From the IMG/VR virus record IMGVR_UViG_3300027859_000094, positions 1-21,248 of that record: DNA of 21,248 nucleotides. One strand, 5' to 3'. The stretch comes from a virus. The translations under genes and the position numbers were made by a program. Position 1 is the first letter of the stretch. The number at the start of each line of letters is the position of its first letter. Under the pieces are notes generated by a model. The model worked only from the letters and a program-made list of their open reading frames with translations, did not search any database and had not been told where the DNA came from. Positions 5,491 through 14,770 of the stretch are shown here, piece after piece.

Positions 5491-6426
5491 ATGGTCGTAC
5501 TTGCAGATCGAGTAAAGGTAAGTTCTAGCACGACAGGCACAGGTACTGTAACTTTGGGTTCAGCCGAAGCAGGATTCCAAACCTTTGCAGCAGGTGGTGT
5601 TAGTAACGGGGACACTGTAAGGTATGTAATTGAAGATGGTAGTGCTTGGGAGATTGGTACAGGTGTATACACTCACTCAGGCACTACTCTTACTAGGGTT
5701 TATACTTCAAGCTCTACTGGTTCTTTACTAAACCTAAGTGGTAATGCAAGGGTGTTTATAAGCCCTAGTGCATCTGACTTAGTATTGTCTGCTAATGCTT
5801 TCAACGTAAATACATTTACCGCAACTTCTAATCAAACCACGTTCTCAGTAAATTATACTGTGGGTACGATTGAAGTTTTTCTTAATGGAATCAAGCTCTT
5901 ACAGTCAGATTATACCGCTACAAACGGAACCACAGTAGTACTTGATGACGGGGCTGATGCAGGAGACAACGTAGAAATAGTTGAATATGGACTAGGGGAT
6001 AGTAACCTAAGTACGTTTTCAAATACCTTTACTTTGCCTGGATCTGATGGTAGCAATGGACAAGCACTAACCACTAACGGTAGTGGTACACTTAGCTTCA
6101 CAACTATCTCAGGTGGTGGGGGGAGTTCTCTTACAGTACAGGATGAAGGTAGCTCTCTATCAACTGCTGCTACTACACTAAACTTTGTTGGTTCGGGTGT
6201 CACAGCTAGTGGCACAGGAGCATCTAAGACTATCACCATTGCAGGTAGTAGTGGTGGTGGGGCTACAGGTGGTGGCAGTGATCAGGTCTTCAATGAAAAC
6301 TCAACAACTATTACTACTAGTTACACGTTATCAACAGGTAAAAGTGCAATGTCTGTTGGACCAATTACTATAAACAATGGGGCGACAGTAACTGTTCCCT
6401 CAACTGCTAGATGGGTAGTCTTGTAA
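5491..6426 (+). CDS. Tail fibre or baseplate-like protein
   Basis: 311 residues. AAGGA upstream of the ATG supports the start. Domains by eye: residues 1-75, a beta-rich N-terminal domain (starting [10 protein letters not shown] and including [19 protein letters not shown]) that I remember as a recurrent phage fibre anchor; residues 104-166, a domain of the type [14 protein letters not shown]...VFLNGIKLL...GDNVEIVEY that is common in phage fibres; Gly-rich linkers at 208-213 and 252-263; and a C-terminal module, 264-311, that includes [19 protein letters not shown]. No enzymatic residues are seen. Stop codon TAA and the next gene's ATG share one base, so the two are probably translationally coupled. 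Most likely a structural fibre that holds other adhesins. Confidence 0.75.
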
Positions 6427-7898
6427 TGACAGAAATAAAAGTAGATAACGTAGTAAACGTAGCAGGGTCAGGTAAACCTAATTTTTCGGTAGCACCAACG
6501 CACTCCTCTGGCTCTGCACTTAGCACGTTAAATACATATCAATATGACACCACTGCTAGAGTAGTTACTGTTGTAAACTCTGGTGGAAATAAGTATGCTA
6601 TAGATGGTGTAACTACACCAACCATAACTCTTCTTAGGGGTGTTACTTACGTTTTTGACATGAGTGATTCTAGTAACGCAGGACATCCTCTAGCATTTAA
6701 AAACAGTGGGTCATCCTATACCACAGGAGTTGTTACTAGCGGAACTGCTGGTCAATCAGGGGCTACTGTTAAATTTACTGTTGCAGCAAATGCGCCCTTG
6801 ACAGGACTAACATACTATTGTACTGCACATGGAGATGGTATGGGGGCTTCTCTTACAACGTCTGATCCTAAGAATGGAGCCTTAGTTTGGGATAGTGTAG
6901 AAGCAAGACCTATGGTCTATATTAATAGTGAATTTAAAAACATACAACTAAACACTGCTTTACCTTCTGCTGCAGCTTGGTGGGGTGCTAGGGGTGTGTC
7001 TGTTGGTGGTCAAACTTCAGCAGGTCAGGTAAATGTACTACAATATTTCACGATTGCAAATACAGGAAACGCTACAGATTTTGGTGATTTAACTGAGGTT
7101 ACTCAAAAAGGAAGTAGTGGAAGTAACGGATCTAGGGGTGTTAGAATTGGAGGCAACGAAAACAGTAATACTATGGATTACTGGGCTTTTGCAACAACAG
7201 GAAACGCCACAGATTTTGGTGATACAACGAGAGGAAGACATAAATGTACTACTGTAGCAGATGGCACAAAAGCCATAACTGCAGGAGATGCTTCCAGTGG
7301 TTATGTTAACGACATTGAATACATAACTGTAGCAACAACAGGTAATGGTACAGATTTTGGAGATCTTACAGGTACTGCTGCAGGTATGGCTGGTACAAAT
7401 GATTTAACAAGAGGTGTATTTGCAGGGGCGCAAGGAGGAACAAAGTCTGCTGAGAGTATGGAATACATAACAATGTCAACGCCAGGTAATGCTACAGATT
7501 ATGGAGATTTGTTTGTTGTTACACCTAATAACTCAAATTTAGCAAATAATCAAAACATGCTGTATGGTGTGGTAGGTGATAATACATATGGTGTGTTCAT
7601 GGGAGGCTATAGTGTTGGGGCATATACGAATGCCATACAGCGCATGACAATACAATCCTCTGCTAATTGTACAGACTTTGGCGACTTATCTCAGGCTAAA
7701 TATGCTGGTGGACAATGTGGTGACGCATCTACTAAACGTGGAATGGCAGTGGGTGGATATGCAAATCCAGGTAGCGGTGGTGTGAGATATAATACTATAG
7801 AATATATAACTGTGGACAACCCAGGTAACGCTACTGACTTTGGTGATCTACTAGCAGCCAACGAAAACTGTAATGCTTGTTCGGGAGCAGCATCATGA
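6426..7898 (+). CDS. Cupredoxin-like domain fused to a six-repeat propeller; putative adhesin
   Basis: 490 residues from the ATG at 6426, chosen because it overlaps the upstream TAA by one base and gives [10 protein letters not shown], like the starts of the related genes downstream; an in-frame ATG at 6411 would add five residues. Residues 44-143 resemble a cupredoxin (blue copper) fold, with a possible ligand set His87 (in AGHPLAF), Cys132, His135 and Met139 (in YYCTAHGDGMG). Residues 153-176 are a short WD/YING-type module shared with the two paralogues. Residues 185-490 hold six repeats centred on GNATDFGD-like text (starts at about 214, 259, 307, 354, 413, 467; 45-59 residues apart), predicted to form a six-bladed propeller. 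Likely a virion surface protein; whether it binds copper is unknown. Confidence 0.75.
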   Translation: MTEIKVDNVVNVAGSGKPNFSVAPTHSSGSALSTLNTYQYDTTARVVTVVNSGGNKYAIDGVTTPTITLLRGVTYVFDMSDSSNAGHPLAFKNSGSSYTTGVVTSGTAGQSGATVKFTVAANAPLTGLTYYCTAHGDGMGASLTTSDPKNGALVWDSVEARPMVYINSEFKNIQLNTALPSAAAWWGARGVSVGGQTSAGQVNVLQYFTIANTGNATDFGDLTEVTQKGSSGSNGSRGVRIGGNENSNTMDYWAFATTGNATDFGDTTRGRHKCTTVADGTKAITAGDASSGYVNDIEYITVATTGNGTDFGDLTGTAAGMAGTNDLTRGVFAGAQGGTKSAESMEYITMSTPGNATDYGDLFVVTPNNSNLANNQNMLYGVVGDNTYGVFMGGYSVGAYTNAIQRMTIQSSANCTDFGDLSQAKYAGGQCGDASTKRGMAVGGYANPGSGGVRYNTIEYITVDNPGNATDFGDLLAANENCNACSGAAS

Positions 7899-10178: not shown

Positions 10179-10532
10179 ATGAGTATATCATACCAGTGGG
10201 GCATTGAAAAGCTACAAACTCAAGACATGACAAATACCAATGACGAGCTTTTACAAAAGGCAATCGTAAAAATTTGGTATTGGAAAGAAGGTACTCATTC
10301 GGATGGACGTAAAGGTAAGTATACAGGCTTATGTGTTCCTAAATTAGAAAATACGGCTGCTAGTAGTTTTGTAGCTATAGGTGATGTAACAGAAGCACAA
10401 GTAATAGCTTGGGTTAAAAGTAGTTATGAAACAGACTTTGAAACAAAACACGTTAACAAAACCATTCAGATGCAAATAAATGAAACAACTAGAGAGGACT
10501 TAGACAGTAAGTCTTTTCCTTGGGTTAGCTAA
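10179..10532 (+). CDS. Conserved small phage protein in fibre cluster
   Basis: 117 residues; AAGAAGG at 10163-10169 supports the start. The N-terminal part, ISYQWGIEKLQTQD, and the segment DVTEAQVIAWVKSSYETDFE resemble a small protein family I remember near fibre genes of marine phages, where a core with similar Trp and Val pattern recurs. Mixed alpha/beta is likely. It is unclear whether it is in the virion or helps fibre assembly. TAA and the next ATG share one base, implying coupling to the large propeller gene that follows. Confidence 0.65.
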   Translation: MSISYQWGIEKLQTQDMTNTNDELLQKAIVKIWYWKEGTHSDGRKGKYTGLCVPKLENTAASSFVAIGDVTEAQVIAWVKSSYETDFETKHVNKTIQMQINETTREDLDSKSFPWVS

Positions 10533-12430
10533 TGGCACTTCAAACTTCTGGCGCAATATCATTAAATGACATCCATGTTGAGGCAGGGGGTAGCTCTGGT
10601 TCTAATGTTACAATTAATGATAGCGACATAAGAAGTTTAATTGGCAAAAGCAGTGGGGCAACCATGTCCTTCAATGAATGGTATGGCGCTAGTAACTTTC
10701 CAACGTTTAGTCCTAGTGGCACAACTCCTTTTAGTTTGGCAAATCTTAGGATGGGACCAGACAGTGGGGGGCATGGTGTCAAATACATAGGCAACTATGA
10801 GTTCAACCCCATAGCAATTACTATGAAGCCTGATGGTACGAAAGCCTATGTAAGTGGTACAATAGGTGATGGCATAGATGAATTTACTTTATCTACTGCA
10901 TGGAAAATGAGTACTGCAACACATACAAACTTTAAATCTTTTTCAGATGCAGGTCACGCAGCTACTCTTCCTTATGGTCTTGCTTTTAAGCCAGATGGTA
11001 CAAGATTAATTATGGTTGATGGTGGAGGAGACAAGTTAGTTGAGTTTAGTTTAAGTAGTGCTTGGAATGTATCTACTCTATCTAAAGTAAGAGATTTTAG
11101 TATTTCATCTTATGACACAATACCAACAGGACTTTGGGTTAAGCCAGATGGTACAAAACTTTATATGGTTTCTGATTATGAAAACGGAATAGATCAATTT
11201 ACTTTAAATAATGCTTGGCAACTCAGTAGTGTTACACACAACGGAGTCTGGGATATGTTCTACCCTGGAGGCGGTGGTTCTAATTCTGGAATCAATAGTC
11301 CAGATAGTGTTTGGTTAAATAGTAATGGCACTAAATTTTATGTAATAGACACACCAGATTTATTTGAATTTAGTACTACTAGTGCTTATAACATAAGTGG
11401 TTTGCCAACTGGTACTTCAAGCTATAATTACAGAGTTCCAGCTAGTTGGATACATGATGGTAATAGTTATGATGCTAATAACTTAGGTTCTTGGTCAGAC
11501 GGTACTCGTTTAGTACAAGTAACTAGAGAAAGAGATTTTATGGCTACAGAGCTGCTAACTGCCTCTGCTTATGACTATAGATATTTAACATTAGACGATT
11601 CTAGATTTCACACATATCTTCCTACAGCATTCTTTAGAGATCCATGTCCTTTCTACTTCTCTCCTTCAGGACACAGACTTTATTATACATCCTACTACGG
11701 TAAACTAGGTAGATATCAATTCAATGGAACTGGTGGATCAAATGGTTCTTGGGACGGTTATGTTATACAAATAAACATGACAGAAGGTTACAATCTTTCA
11801 ACTGCATCTATTGCTAGATACATTGACTTTACGTCCAATACAGCAAGAGCGCAAGGAGTATTTTTTAGCAGAGATGGTACTTATATGTATCTTGGTGACA
11901 GAGGGGACTCTTCTAATAGTTACAATCAAACAATAGAACAATATACATTAAGTACAGCTTGGGAGATTAATACAGCATCATACACAAGATCATATGATAT
12001 AGATTCCTATGTTCCTGACCTTACAGATTTTCACTTCAATACAGACGGTACTATAATGTATGCAATGTGCTACAACACTGATAAGATATATCAATGGTCA
12101 TTAAGCACAGCTTGGAATATTAGCACAGCTTCCTATTCTACCCAGTACAGCGTGTCTAATAGAGAAAATAAACCTAGATGTTTTACTATAAGTCCTAATG
12201 GCACAAAAATGCTTGTAGGTGGATGGGCTGGTGATGATCTTAACGAGTATAACCTTACCACTGCTCATAACATTTCTAGTGCTTCATATCAAAGAGTTTT
12301 TGATACTGATGCTTATACCTTTCCTTTTACTCCTGCTATTGGTGGGGTATGGTTTCACGAGGACGGTGGAATTGTTTACGTTACAGATGGTAGAGGTGAT
12401 GCCATAACTATACATGGGTTCTTGACATAA
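10532..12430 (+). CDS. Large beta-propeller tail protein with LSTAW-type repeats
   Basis: 632 residues. Residues 1-54 are a recognisable phage fibre N-terminus (MALQTSGAISLNDIHVEAGG, then DSDIRSLIGKSSG and SFNEWYGAS), probably the virion attachment part. The rest repeats a unit of the form PDGTKxYVxxxxxDxIxEFTLSTAWxxST, about 45-60 residues each. I count roughly nine units, the middle ones (residues about 300-420) more diverged. Examples are KPDGTKLYMVSDYENGIDQF, SPNGTKMLVGGWAGDDLNEY, and LSTAWEINTASYTRSYDI. Such DGT/K-Y repeats are typical of YVTN/lactonase-like propellers, but no catalytic residues are evident. A receptor-binding protein is the likely role. The repeat differs from that of the neighbouring GNATDFGD propellers, so it is a separate lineage. 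Confidence 0.7.
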   Translation: MALQTSGAISLNDIHVEAGGSSGSNVTINDSDIRSLIGKSSGATMSFNEWYGASNFPTFSPSGTTPFSLANLRMGPDSGGHGVKYIGNYEFNPIAITMKPDGTKAYVSGTIGDGIDEFTLSTAWKMSTATHTNFKSFSDAGHAATLPYGLAFKPDGTRLIMVDGGGDKLVEFSLSSAWNVSTLSKVRDFSISSYDTIPTGLWVKPDGTKLYMVSDYENGIDQFTLNNAWQLSSVTHNGVWDMFYPGGGGSNSGINSPDSVWLNSNGTKFYVIDTPDLFEFSTTSAYNISGLPTGTSSYNYRVPASWIHDGNSYDANNLGSWSDGTRLVQVTRERDFMATELLTASAYDYRYLTLDDSRFHTYLPTAFFRDPCPFYFSPSGHRLYYTSYYGKLGRYQFNGTGGSNGSWDGYVIQINMTEGYNLSTASIARYIDFTSNTARAQGVFFSRDGTYMYLGDRGDSSNSYNQTIEQYTLSTAWEINTASYTRSYDIDSYVPDLTDFHFNTDGTIMYAMCYNTDKIYQWSLSTAWNISTASYSTQYSVSNRENKPRCFTISPNGTKMLVGGWAGDDLNEYNLTTAHNISSASYQRVFDTDAYTFPFTPAIGGVWFHEDGGIVYVTDGRGDAITIHGFLT

Positions 12431-12443
12431 ATAGGATAACAAA

Positions 12444-13586
12444 ATGAGTACTTTAAAAGTAGATACTGTTGAACACCCTACATCCAGTAGTGCCGTAGAC
12501 TTACCTAACAAACTTAAGATAGGTGGGGCTACAATAGAACAAGGATACACTGCAAGTGGGTCAGAGCCTGGCAGTGCTAATACTGGAGATTGGTGGTGGG
12601 ATACTAGCAATGATAAACTTTATAGATACATAAACGGAGAGTTTAAACTTATTGGCATGGCTGTCGTTCCTGTTTCTGGGTACAATGGAGCTAGAGGTTT
12701 TTGGTATGGTGGTTCAACCACTTCGTCAGATAGTAGTAGAACAAATATTATAGACTATGTTACTATAGCAACACCAGGTAACGCAACCGACTTTGGAAAT
12801 TTGACTGAGAGTATGGGTAGAAATGGTCAAGGTGCATCTAATGGTGTAAGAGGTGTAAGACTTGGTGGTGAAAAATCTAATAGCTCCAAAACAAATACTA
12901 TGGATTATATAACTTGTGCAACTCCTGGTAATGCTACAGACTTCGGTAATCTATCCTCAGCAAGGGAAGAAGGTACGGGTGCTTCTAATGGTACAAGAGG
13001 TTTAGCAATCGGTGGTTACGCTTCTTCTTCTCAAAATGTTATAGAATATATAACTATATCTACCACAGGAAATGCTACAGACTTTGGGGATTGTTTAACT
13101 ACTAAAGTTGCATCTACTGGTGTAAATGGAGAAACAAGAGCATTAGTGTGTGGAACAACGACATCAGCCGCACACTATCAAACAATAGAGTATATTGTAG
13201 TAGCTACCACAGGCAACTCTGTAGACTTTGGGGATTTAACAGGCAACCACAATAGAGGTGGTTCTGCTGCTGATGCAAGCAGAGCCGTAATAGCTCTTGG
13301 GTATGATACTATAGCAAGTACAGATAATCAATTATGCTATGTAGCAAATGATACTGCAGGTAATGCTCAGGACTTTGGGGACTTAACTGTTGGTAGATAT
13401 GAACAGGTAGCAGGTTGTTCTGATGGAACATATGCAGTCTTTGGTGGTGGTCAGGTTTATAATACTCAGACTAAAACTAATACCATAGATTATGTAACAA
13501 TACAAACTACAGGTAATGCCCAAGACTTTGGTGATCTAACAGTAGCCAGATTAGAACAAGGTTCCTTTGGAGGAAATGCAGCATGA
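12444..13586 (+). CDS. Six-repeat propeller protein, putative adhesin (paralogue 2)
   Basis: 380 residues; AGGAT at 12433-12437 supports the start. The N-terminus MSTLKVDTVEHPTSSSAVDL resembles the anchor of many marine phage tail proteins. Residues 50-70 are a WWWDTSNDKLYRYINGEF module. Six repeats follow, centred on GNATDFGNL/GNAQDFGDL text starting at residues 112, 162, 209, 257, 306 and 357, so 47 to 51 residues apart, each with an RG-x-x-GG strand, then an IDYVTIATT strand. This is the pattern of a six-bladed kelch-like propeller. It lacks the cupredoxin-like domain of paralogue 1. The stop overlaps the next start as ATGA. Confidence 0.72.
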   Translation: MSTLKVDTVEHPTSSSAVDLPNKLKIGGATIEQGYTASGSEPGSANTGDWWWDTSNDKLYRYINGEFKLIGMAVVPVSGYNGARGFWYGGSTTSSDSSRTNIIDYVTIATPGNATDFGNLTESMGRNGQGASNGVRGVRLGGEKSNSSKTNTMDYITCATPGNATDFGNLSSAREEGTGASNGTRGLAIGGYASSSQNVIEYITISTTGNATDFGDCLTTKVASTGVNGETRALVCGTTTSAAHYQTIEYIVVATTGNSVDFGDLTGNHNRGGSAADASRAVIALGYDTIASTDNQLCYVANDTAGNAQDFGDLTVGRYEQVAGCSDGTYAVFGGGQVYNTQTKTNTIDYVTIQTTGNAQDFGDLTVARLEQGSFGGNAA

Positions 13587-14770
13587 GTAAGGTTGAGATA
13601 ACAAAAATAACAGACAGGACAGGTTCTGGCGCACCCAACTTTACGAATGGGTTTAACATTGCAGGTGCTGACAGTGGCATATCAGGCTTCACTCACACAG
13701 AAGGTTCTTCGGAACCTAGTAACCCTAGCAACGGTGATACATGGTGGGATTCAGGTAACGATATATATAAAGTCTATATGAACAATGCATGGCAAGATTT
13801 TCTAGGAAGTTCTGCACCTGCTGCTATAGCTTGGGGAGGTGATAGAGGTTTTCATATTGGTGGTGGTGACAGCAGTAGTTCTAAAAATCAAATACAGTAT
13901 TTTGATATAACCACATCAGGAAATGCTCAGGACTTTGGAGACATAAATGCCAGCTATTCTAGAGAAGGTTCAGGTCTTTCTAGTGGAAGTAGGATAGTAA
14001 TTTCTATTGGAAACGAACACAGTGGTGCTTCATCCTCTGGACGTACTAATAAACTAGAATATTTTGCATCTGCAACAACGGGTAATGCTAGTAGTTTTGG
14101 AACATTAAGTGCATTAAAACAAGACGCAGCCTCTTCTTCAAATGGTACTAGAGGAGTCTTTGCAGGTGGCGTATCTGCTGGAGGTTCTTCAGGACTAAGA
14201 AATGAAATAGAATATATAACTATTGCAAACACAGGAAACGCTGCAGACTTTGGGGATCTTTTAAACCCTAGTTTTGCTAGATCTGGAGTTGGCGGTAGTA
14301 CTCGTGGACTCTTCAATAGTGGAAGATTGTGGTTCCAAAATAGCCCATCACAACTTAATAACATTGAATATATAACTATTGCAACAACAGGAAATGCTAC
14401 AAACTTTGGAGAAACTAGTCAAAACTGTTATTATTCTGCTGCAGCATCAGATGCAACACGAGCAATAATAGCAGCAGGTGGTGGTTTTGGAGATACTGTA
14501 GGTAATAGTACTATGGAATATGTCACTGTTGATACTACTGGCAATGCTACAGATTTTGGCGACTTAACGAATAACCCTGTTGCAAAAAATCTATCTGGCT
14601 GTGCTAATTCTACTTATGCAACTTTTTCAGGAGGTATTGAAACAACAGGATATACCTATCAAAATATTATAAATAGAGTTACTGTTCAAACAGCAGGTAA
14701 TGCTACGGATCACGGAGACTTAGCAACAGCTACGATGGATGCCGCAGCAGCATCAGGGAACGCATCATGA
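13583..14770 (+). CDS. Six-repeat propeller protein, putative adhesin (paralogue 3)
   Basis: 395 residues. GGAGG (13568-13572) precedes an ATG that overlaps the previous stop (ATGA). The N-terminus MSKVEITKITDRTGSGAPNF is similar to that of paralogue 1. Residues 52-75 are a WWDSGNDIYKVYMNNAWQDF module, the counterpart of WWWDTSNDKLYRYINGEF in paralogue 2. Six repeats centred on GNATDFGD-like text start at residues 113, 167, 218, 270, 320 and 372, 50 to 54 residues apart; repeats 2, 4 and 6 have diverged (GNASSFG, GNATNFG, GNATDHG). The 3' end abuts a promoter, so this gene probably ends the fibre transcription unit. Predicted virion surface protein; binding target unknown. Confidence 0.72.
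   Translation: MSKVEITKITDRTGSGAPNFTNGFNIAGADSGISGFTHTEGSSEPSNPSNGDTWWDSGNDIYKVYMNNAWQDFLGSSAPAAIAWGGDRGFHIGGGDSSSSKNQIQYFDITTSGNAQDFGDINASYSREGSGLSSGSRIVISIGNEHSGASSSGRTNKLEYFASATTGNASSFGTLSALKQDAASSSNGTRGVFAGGVSAGGSSGLRNEIEYITIANTGNAADFGDLLNPSFARSGVGGSTRGLFNSGRLWFQNSPSQLNNIEYITIATTGNATNFGETSQNCYYSAAASDATRAIIAAGGGFGDTVGNSTMEYVTVDTTGNATDFGDLTNNPVAKNLSGCANSTYATFSGGIETTGYTYQNIINRVTVQTAGNATDHGDLATATMDAAAASGNAS
14210..14384 (+). repeat. Direct 19-base repeat within the propeller gene
   Basis: The 19 bases GAATATATAACTATTGCAA occur at 14210-14228 and again at 14366-14384, 156 bases (52 codons) apart and in the same frame. They encode the EYITIA strand of adjacent propeller repeats, so they come from blade duplication and could allow blade loss or gain by recombination. 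Confidence 0.75.

Follow-up and report, generated by a model that had tools for sequence, protein, structure and literature searches.

In the cupredoxin topology, the copper ligands follow one another along the strands in the order His, Cys, His, Met. The closest described systems are the small cupredoxins (PF00127: plastocyanin, amicyanin, pseudoazurin, azurin) and rusticyanin (TIGR03095), with which the phage domain reported here has in common a predicted beta-sandwich, a His followed by Cys-x2-His-x(2,3)-Met, the ligand order and the single Cys. While the small cupredoxins are soluble electron carriers, the phage domain lies inside structural proteins and gives weak, non-significant matches to the curated models. 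By fold, the cupredoxin domains of copper nitrite reductase (2dv6) and of multicopper oxidases (McoA, laccases) are nearest to it; unlike these, it is a single domain, seen with neither an enzyme partner domain nor a type-2 or trinuclear site. Iron on phage tail fibres was already proposed in the Ferrojan or Trojan Horse idea (reviewed in PMC11705849), and tail-borne metal is therefore not new as an idea. T4-type tail fibres and the phage domain share a proposed metal on the tails of oceanic phages, but while the former would hold iron at HxH in a trimeric fibre, the latter is predicted to be a self-contained H2CM copper-type fold. The PHROG tail families 30742, 693, 677, 708, and 32294 contain the domain, but they describe whole proteins (tail fiber, baseplate wedge) in which the copper-type domain is unnamed.

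The domain studied here is encoded in the IMG/VR virus record IMGVR_UViG_3300027859_000094, and the window, i.e., the whole stretch of DNA analysed, comprises 21,248 bases. Its gene content is that of a tailed phage, including a head-tail adaptor, a major head protein and tail proteins, and two tail-fibre-type genes match long-tail-fibre families, one of them with a Pfam S74 chaperone domain. An earlier note made on this DNA had described the reading frame of the 490-aa protein (Table 1) and several motifs within it. Translation of 6426-7898 confirms them all at the residues quoted, namely GVTYVFDMSD, AGHPLAF, which contains His87, and YYCTAHGDGMG, which contains Cys132, His135, and Met139. 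Starting instead from an in-frame ATG at 6411 would lengthen the protein by 5 aa. The stop codon of the upstream reading frame shares its last base with the ATG at 6426, and the strand opposite the gene is interrupted by stops. The domain region matches PHROG tail fiber families (phrog_30742, E 3.8e-18), and judged from these families and from the gene neighbours the protein appears tail-fibre-like and may be a phage tail fibre or adhesin.

Table 1. Features of the gene for the 490-aa protein; positions are those of the window.
Feature	Position	Strand	Basis
Tail-fibre-like protein, 490 aa	6426..7898	+	ATG at 6426 to stop at 7898; PHROG matches
N-terminal segment, residues 1-45	6426..6560	+	Conserved among the window, L002, and L003
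Cupredoxin-like domain, residues 46-146	6561..6863	+	AlphaFold2, Foldseek, 45-member alignment
His87 codon, putative first copper ligand	6684..6686	+	Invariant column; never lost without Cys132 and His135
Cys132 codon, putative thiolate ligand	6819..6821	+	Invariant; only Cys within the domain
His135 codon, putative second His ligand (C-x2-H)	6828..6830	+	Invariant
Met139 codon, putative axial ligand (H-x3-M)	6840..6842	+	Invariant
Six TGNATDFGD-type repeats of about 50 aa	6978..7886	+	Motif at residues 213, 258, 305, 353, 412, and 466

The N-terminal segment probably forms an attachment or linker region ahead of the cupredoxin-like domain. From their motif, the six C-terminal repeats could possibly be a beta-propeller; the AlphaFold2 model of the full-length protein (pLDDT 40.6) is too poor to show one, and a propeller query found no match among viral contigs. 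Repeats of this type and length are common to three fibre-region genes of the window (6978-7886, 12444-13586, and 13583-14770), and few relatives of them were found. A further gene, at 10532-12430, encodes a protein of 632 aa that might be another propeller adhesin: it matches lactonase/PD40 beta-propellers (PF10282, E 1.3e-5) and has the phage N-terminal domain phrog_26746.

The cupredoxin fold suspected in the earlier note is borne out by structure prediction. With residues 40-153 and 44 relatives as input, AlphaFold2 returned a confident model (mean pLDDT 94.5, pTM 0.87) that is nearly all beta and resembles the Greek-key beta-sandwich of known cupredoxins. Here His87 (position 48 of the model) lies shortly before strand 50-54, Cys132 (93) ends strand 89-93, His135 (96) lies in a turn and Met139 (100) inside strand 97-107, which is the ligand order of the cupredoxin topology. 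The top matches of a Foldseek search against the PDB are copper proteins with a probability of about 1.0, led by the cupredoxin domain of nitrite reductase 2dv6 (E 3.8e-4) and including rusticyanin 1rcy (E 5.8e-4), the multicopper oxidase McoA and small laccases. Among the points against a copper site are the modest TM-scores to solved cupredoxins (0.5-0.6).

The direct sequence resemblance of the family to known cupredoxins, as judged by profile and single-sequence searches, is remote. The window domain has no match in Pfam, where the family has no model of its own, and single-sequence searches of Pfam and the PDB gave noise and antibody YYC matches only; a profile search of the PDB was indecisive, with antibodies and plastocyanins near E 0.4. 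PF00127 matches 4 of the 45 members (best E 0.023), one or two members match the rusticyanin and halocyanin models at E values near 0.02 (rusticyanin best E 0.016, 2/45), and the curated cut-offs of PF00127 Copper-bind and of the NCBIfam rusticyanin model are not reached. The window domain is a member of the cupredoxin fold superfamily only and does not belong to the PF00127 or rusticyanin sequence families. The P-HM1 protein ADO98728 (L204, reading frame from 1560) holds a second, plastocyanin-like copper domain. The family profile detects this second domain (iE 3e-7), and since the domain in turn resembles plastocyanin 1b3i (E 1.1e-4) and, at a score slightly short of the cut-off, PF00127 (E 7.5e-4), it forms a sequence bridge from the family to known cupredoxins.

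The weak matches of YYC to antibody chains suggest another reading, a beta-sandwich of immunoglobulin-like or other type that binds no metal and whose YYC and neighbouring residues are structural; ADO98728, the protein with both domains, was annotated with PF07686 by its depositors. We regard this reading as highly improbable, since copper proteins rank above the Ig-type matches in the fold search, and since the His/Cys/His set is either retained or lost as a whole. A second Cys is absent in 229 of 231 domains, and a single Cys per domain excludes a disulfide role. The immunoglobulin V-set/disulfide assignment, which requires a Cys-Cys pair, was rejected.

The full type-1 ligand set claimed in the earlier note, His87 and Cys132-x2-His135-x3-Met139, is present in cupredoxin order and spacing, and conservation singles out the same residues. 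Among 45 representative relatives, 7 of 111 columns are invariant (Y36, F38, H48, C93, H96, M100, and G101), and the four ligands, all named beforehand, fall into four of these seven, for which random placement gives p ~6e-6. As part of the homologue retrieval used peptide patterns that contain ligand residues, the subset from ligand-free patterns was examined separately: in the 27 loci found by such patterns only, H/C/H/M is present in 36/36 full-length domains, four more domains that are interrupted, partial or doubtful standing outside the 36. The first His (H48) is kept in 114/119 of the loci from L086 upward, which were retrieved by patterns without it, the others having Tyr (3) or Phe (1) or being uncovered (1). 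The Met spacing in the family is H-x2-M in 144 domains and H-x3-M in 74.

For the conservation census, 294 loci supplied 257 complete domains, all distinct, which were grouped into 73 clusters at 70% identity. H/C/H/M is found in 245 domains, and one, representing a single lineage, keeps the H/C/H triad but has no Met, and its Cys-His loop is longer. The remaining 11 lack His, Cys, and His jointly; not one domain lacks only one or two of the three. Co-variation of the ligands among homologues, which the earlier note had put forward as a check, is thereby observed: the triad is kept in 66 clusters, lost as a whole in 7 and mixed or partial in none, the 7 becoming 6 without the doubtful member L037 371-465, which was excluded from the tree. 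In this tree, built without the ligand columns, the triad-less copies form at least three separate clades; a Fisher-type figure for the all-or-none pattern is 6e-10 but ignores kinship, and at least three separate losses are therefore the fairer statement. Regarding interrupted copies, the one in phage Syn1 has also lost the ligand set, and those in L073 and L074 retain His, Cys, and a later His. This all-or-none loss argues that His/Cys/His act as one unit, for which a metal site is the best explanation. The Met persists in several triad-less copies and may thus be partly structural, and the axial ligand of cupredoxins is known as replaceable (compare PMC4059628). In the known cupredoxin AcoP the motif reads C-x6-H-x4-M (PMC4059628), and changes in loop length are hence compatible with the fold.

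Fold and ligands together make it likely that the segment 46-146 is a genuine cupredoxin domain, belongs to a new subfamily of mainly marine occurrence and keeps a working, metal-competent mononuclear site of the type-1 copper kind. A site of cupredoxin shape could also be real and hold another metal (Zn, Ni, Fe) or stay mostly empty, as a generic metal-stabilised loop. H2CM sites do take other metals in vitro, and iron on the HxH motifs of T4 gp37 is a precedent for metal in phage fibres (PMC11705849). The ligands of the phage domain are, however, the exact type-1 set including the axial Met in its two spacings, and the nearest folds are copper proteins, which makes this alternative unlikely. 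Copies without ligands persist in phage tails and in secreted proteins, and so the fold alone appears to be useful and able to serve without metal. The stand-alone copy of about 112 aa in PSS2 gp080 (L206 1992-2330) and in L209-L212, in which His/Cys/His are lost, adjoins the tape-measure gene and represents a natural metal-free control. Very large secreted flavobacterial/Bacteroidetes proteins (L103, L108, L116, L117) carry the domain twice, in one copy with every ligand and in the other with His, Cys, and His all lost.

The guess that the feature is family-wide in marine phage tail proteins is supported. At least 581 relatives are present among the 600 pattern matches listed for IMG/VR, and 140 of 50,697 GenBank phage records match the domain family, almost all of them phages of Synechococcus, Prochlorococcus, Pelagibacter, and Methylophilales. 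The matching genes are annotated as tail fibre, baseplate wedge, virion structural or hypothetical proteins. The PHROGs that match are mostly tail families, those for tail fibres, baseplate wedges and fibre connectors covering 34-45 of the 45 members, and annotated isolates agree with a location of the domain in tail proteins. Plasmids gave no domain match. In SAR86 and other gammaproteobacteria, the domain occurs in lipoproteins (lipoboxes read by eye); several other matches in MAGs resemble phage proteins and may come from phage contigs binned with bacteria. The earlier note had called the domain unusual, which does not hold for its frequency, the domain being very common in marine phages, but does hold in the sense that it is undescribed in the open-licence literature. 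There, no copper-type domain in phage tails was found, an absence that is no proof, and no cupredoxin-domain protein is named in the virion proteomics passages covered. While the cupredoxin fold is known, its use in phage tails thus appears new to that open-licence record.

Regarding function, a copper-loaded rigid adhesion or structural module is the most likely role, and it is much less certain than the site; taken by itself, a structural or adhesive role is a tentative assignment with somewhat less than an even chance. It is favoured over a soluble electron carrier because the domain is reused in viral structural proteins and cell-surface lipoproteins. Most characterised cupredoxins are electron carriers, the ligand set is intact and many hosts are picocyanobacteria, and the copper site of the fibre could accordingly be imagined, during infection, to sense the redox state or to exchange electrons with a protein of the host's surface or periplasm. 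This is distinctly unlikely given that the domain sits in long structural proteins, that no redox partner gene is nearby in the 21,248-base window and that the relatives found in cells are lipoproteins of the surface, many of them bearing a collagen-like stalk, and not obvious carriers.

In the structural role, the domain would be a compact rigid module between the N-terminal linker and the repeat domain of the tail-fibre protein. The virion would be assembled with an empty site, as the cytoplasm contains practically no free copper, and the exposed domain would pick up copper from the lysate or seawater, where cupredoxin sites bind it very tightly. The bound metal would lock the Cys/His/Met loop, resulting in a stiffer fibre and/or a shaped surface for host attachment. 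The identity of the metal, its loading route and the function of the site are what we infer here. As hundreds of tail proteins from marine phages share the domain, copper may be present on the tails of some viruses of the ocean. A wider proposal, which we consider doubtful, is that marine phages of picocyanobacteria, SAR11, and methylotrophs bear functional type-1 copper sites on tail fibres and baseplates that are loaded after release, that copper availability or redox would control fibre stiffness or attachment, and that the virions would form a seawater pool of copper binding, the copper counterpart of the iron-on-tails idea. Should the site be loaded, certain viruses that rank among the ocean's most abundant would bear a redox metal on the parts of the tail that contact the host, phage attachment would be linked to trace-metal chemistry, and cultured phages with the domain (S-TIM5, Bellamy, P-SSM2, HTVC028P, Melnitz) would allow a cheap direct test. 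A very common unannotated domain of marine phage tail genes would, if this is true, gain a name and a mechanism.

The domain also occurs in Poseidoniales (Marine Group II) archaeal lipoproteins (L096-L098, L100-L102, L104-L107; LSGC lipobox read by eye), which have collagen-like G-P-x stalks and carry it at the C-terminal tip. In a comparison by fold, the BFVD entry A0A481YXP1, named as a protein of Marseillevirus LCMAC201, matches the domain model with a TM of 0.73 (E 3.6e-5), which suggests that the cupredoxin-like fold may extend to giant viruses.
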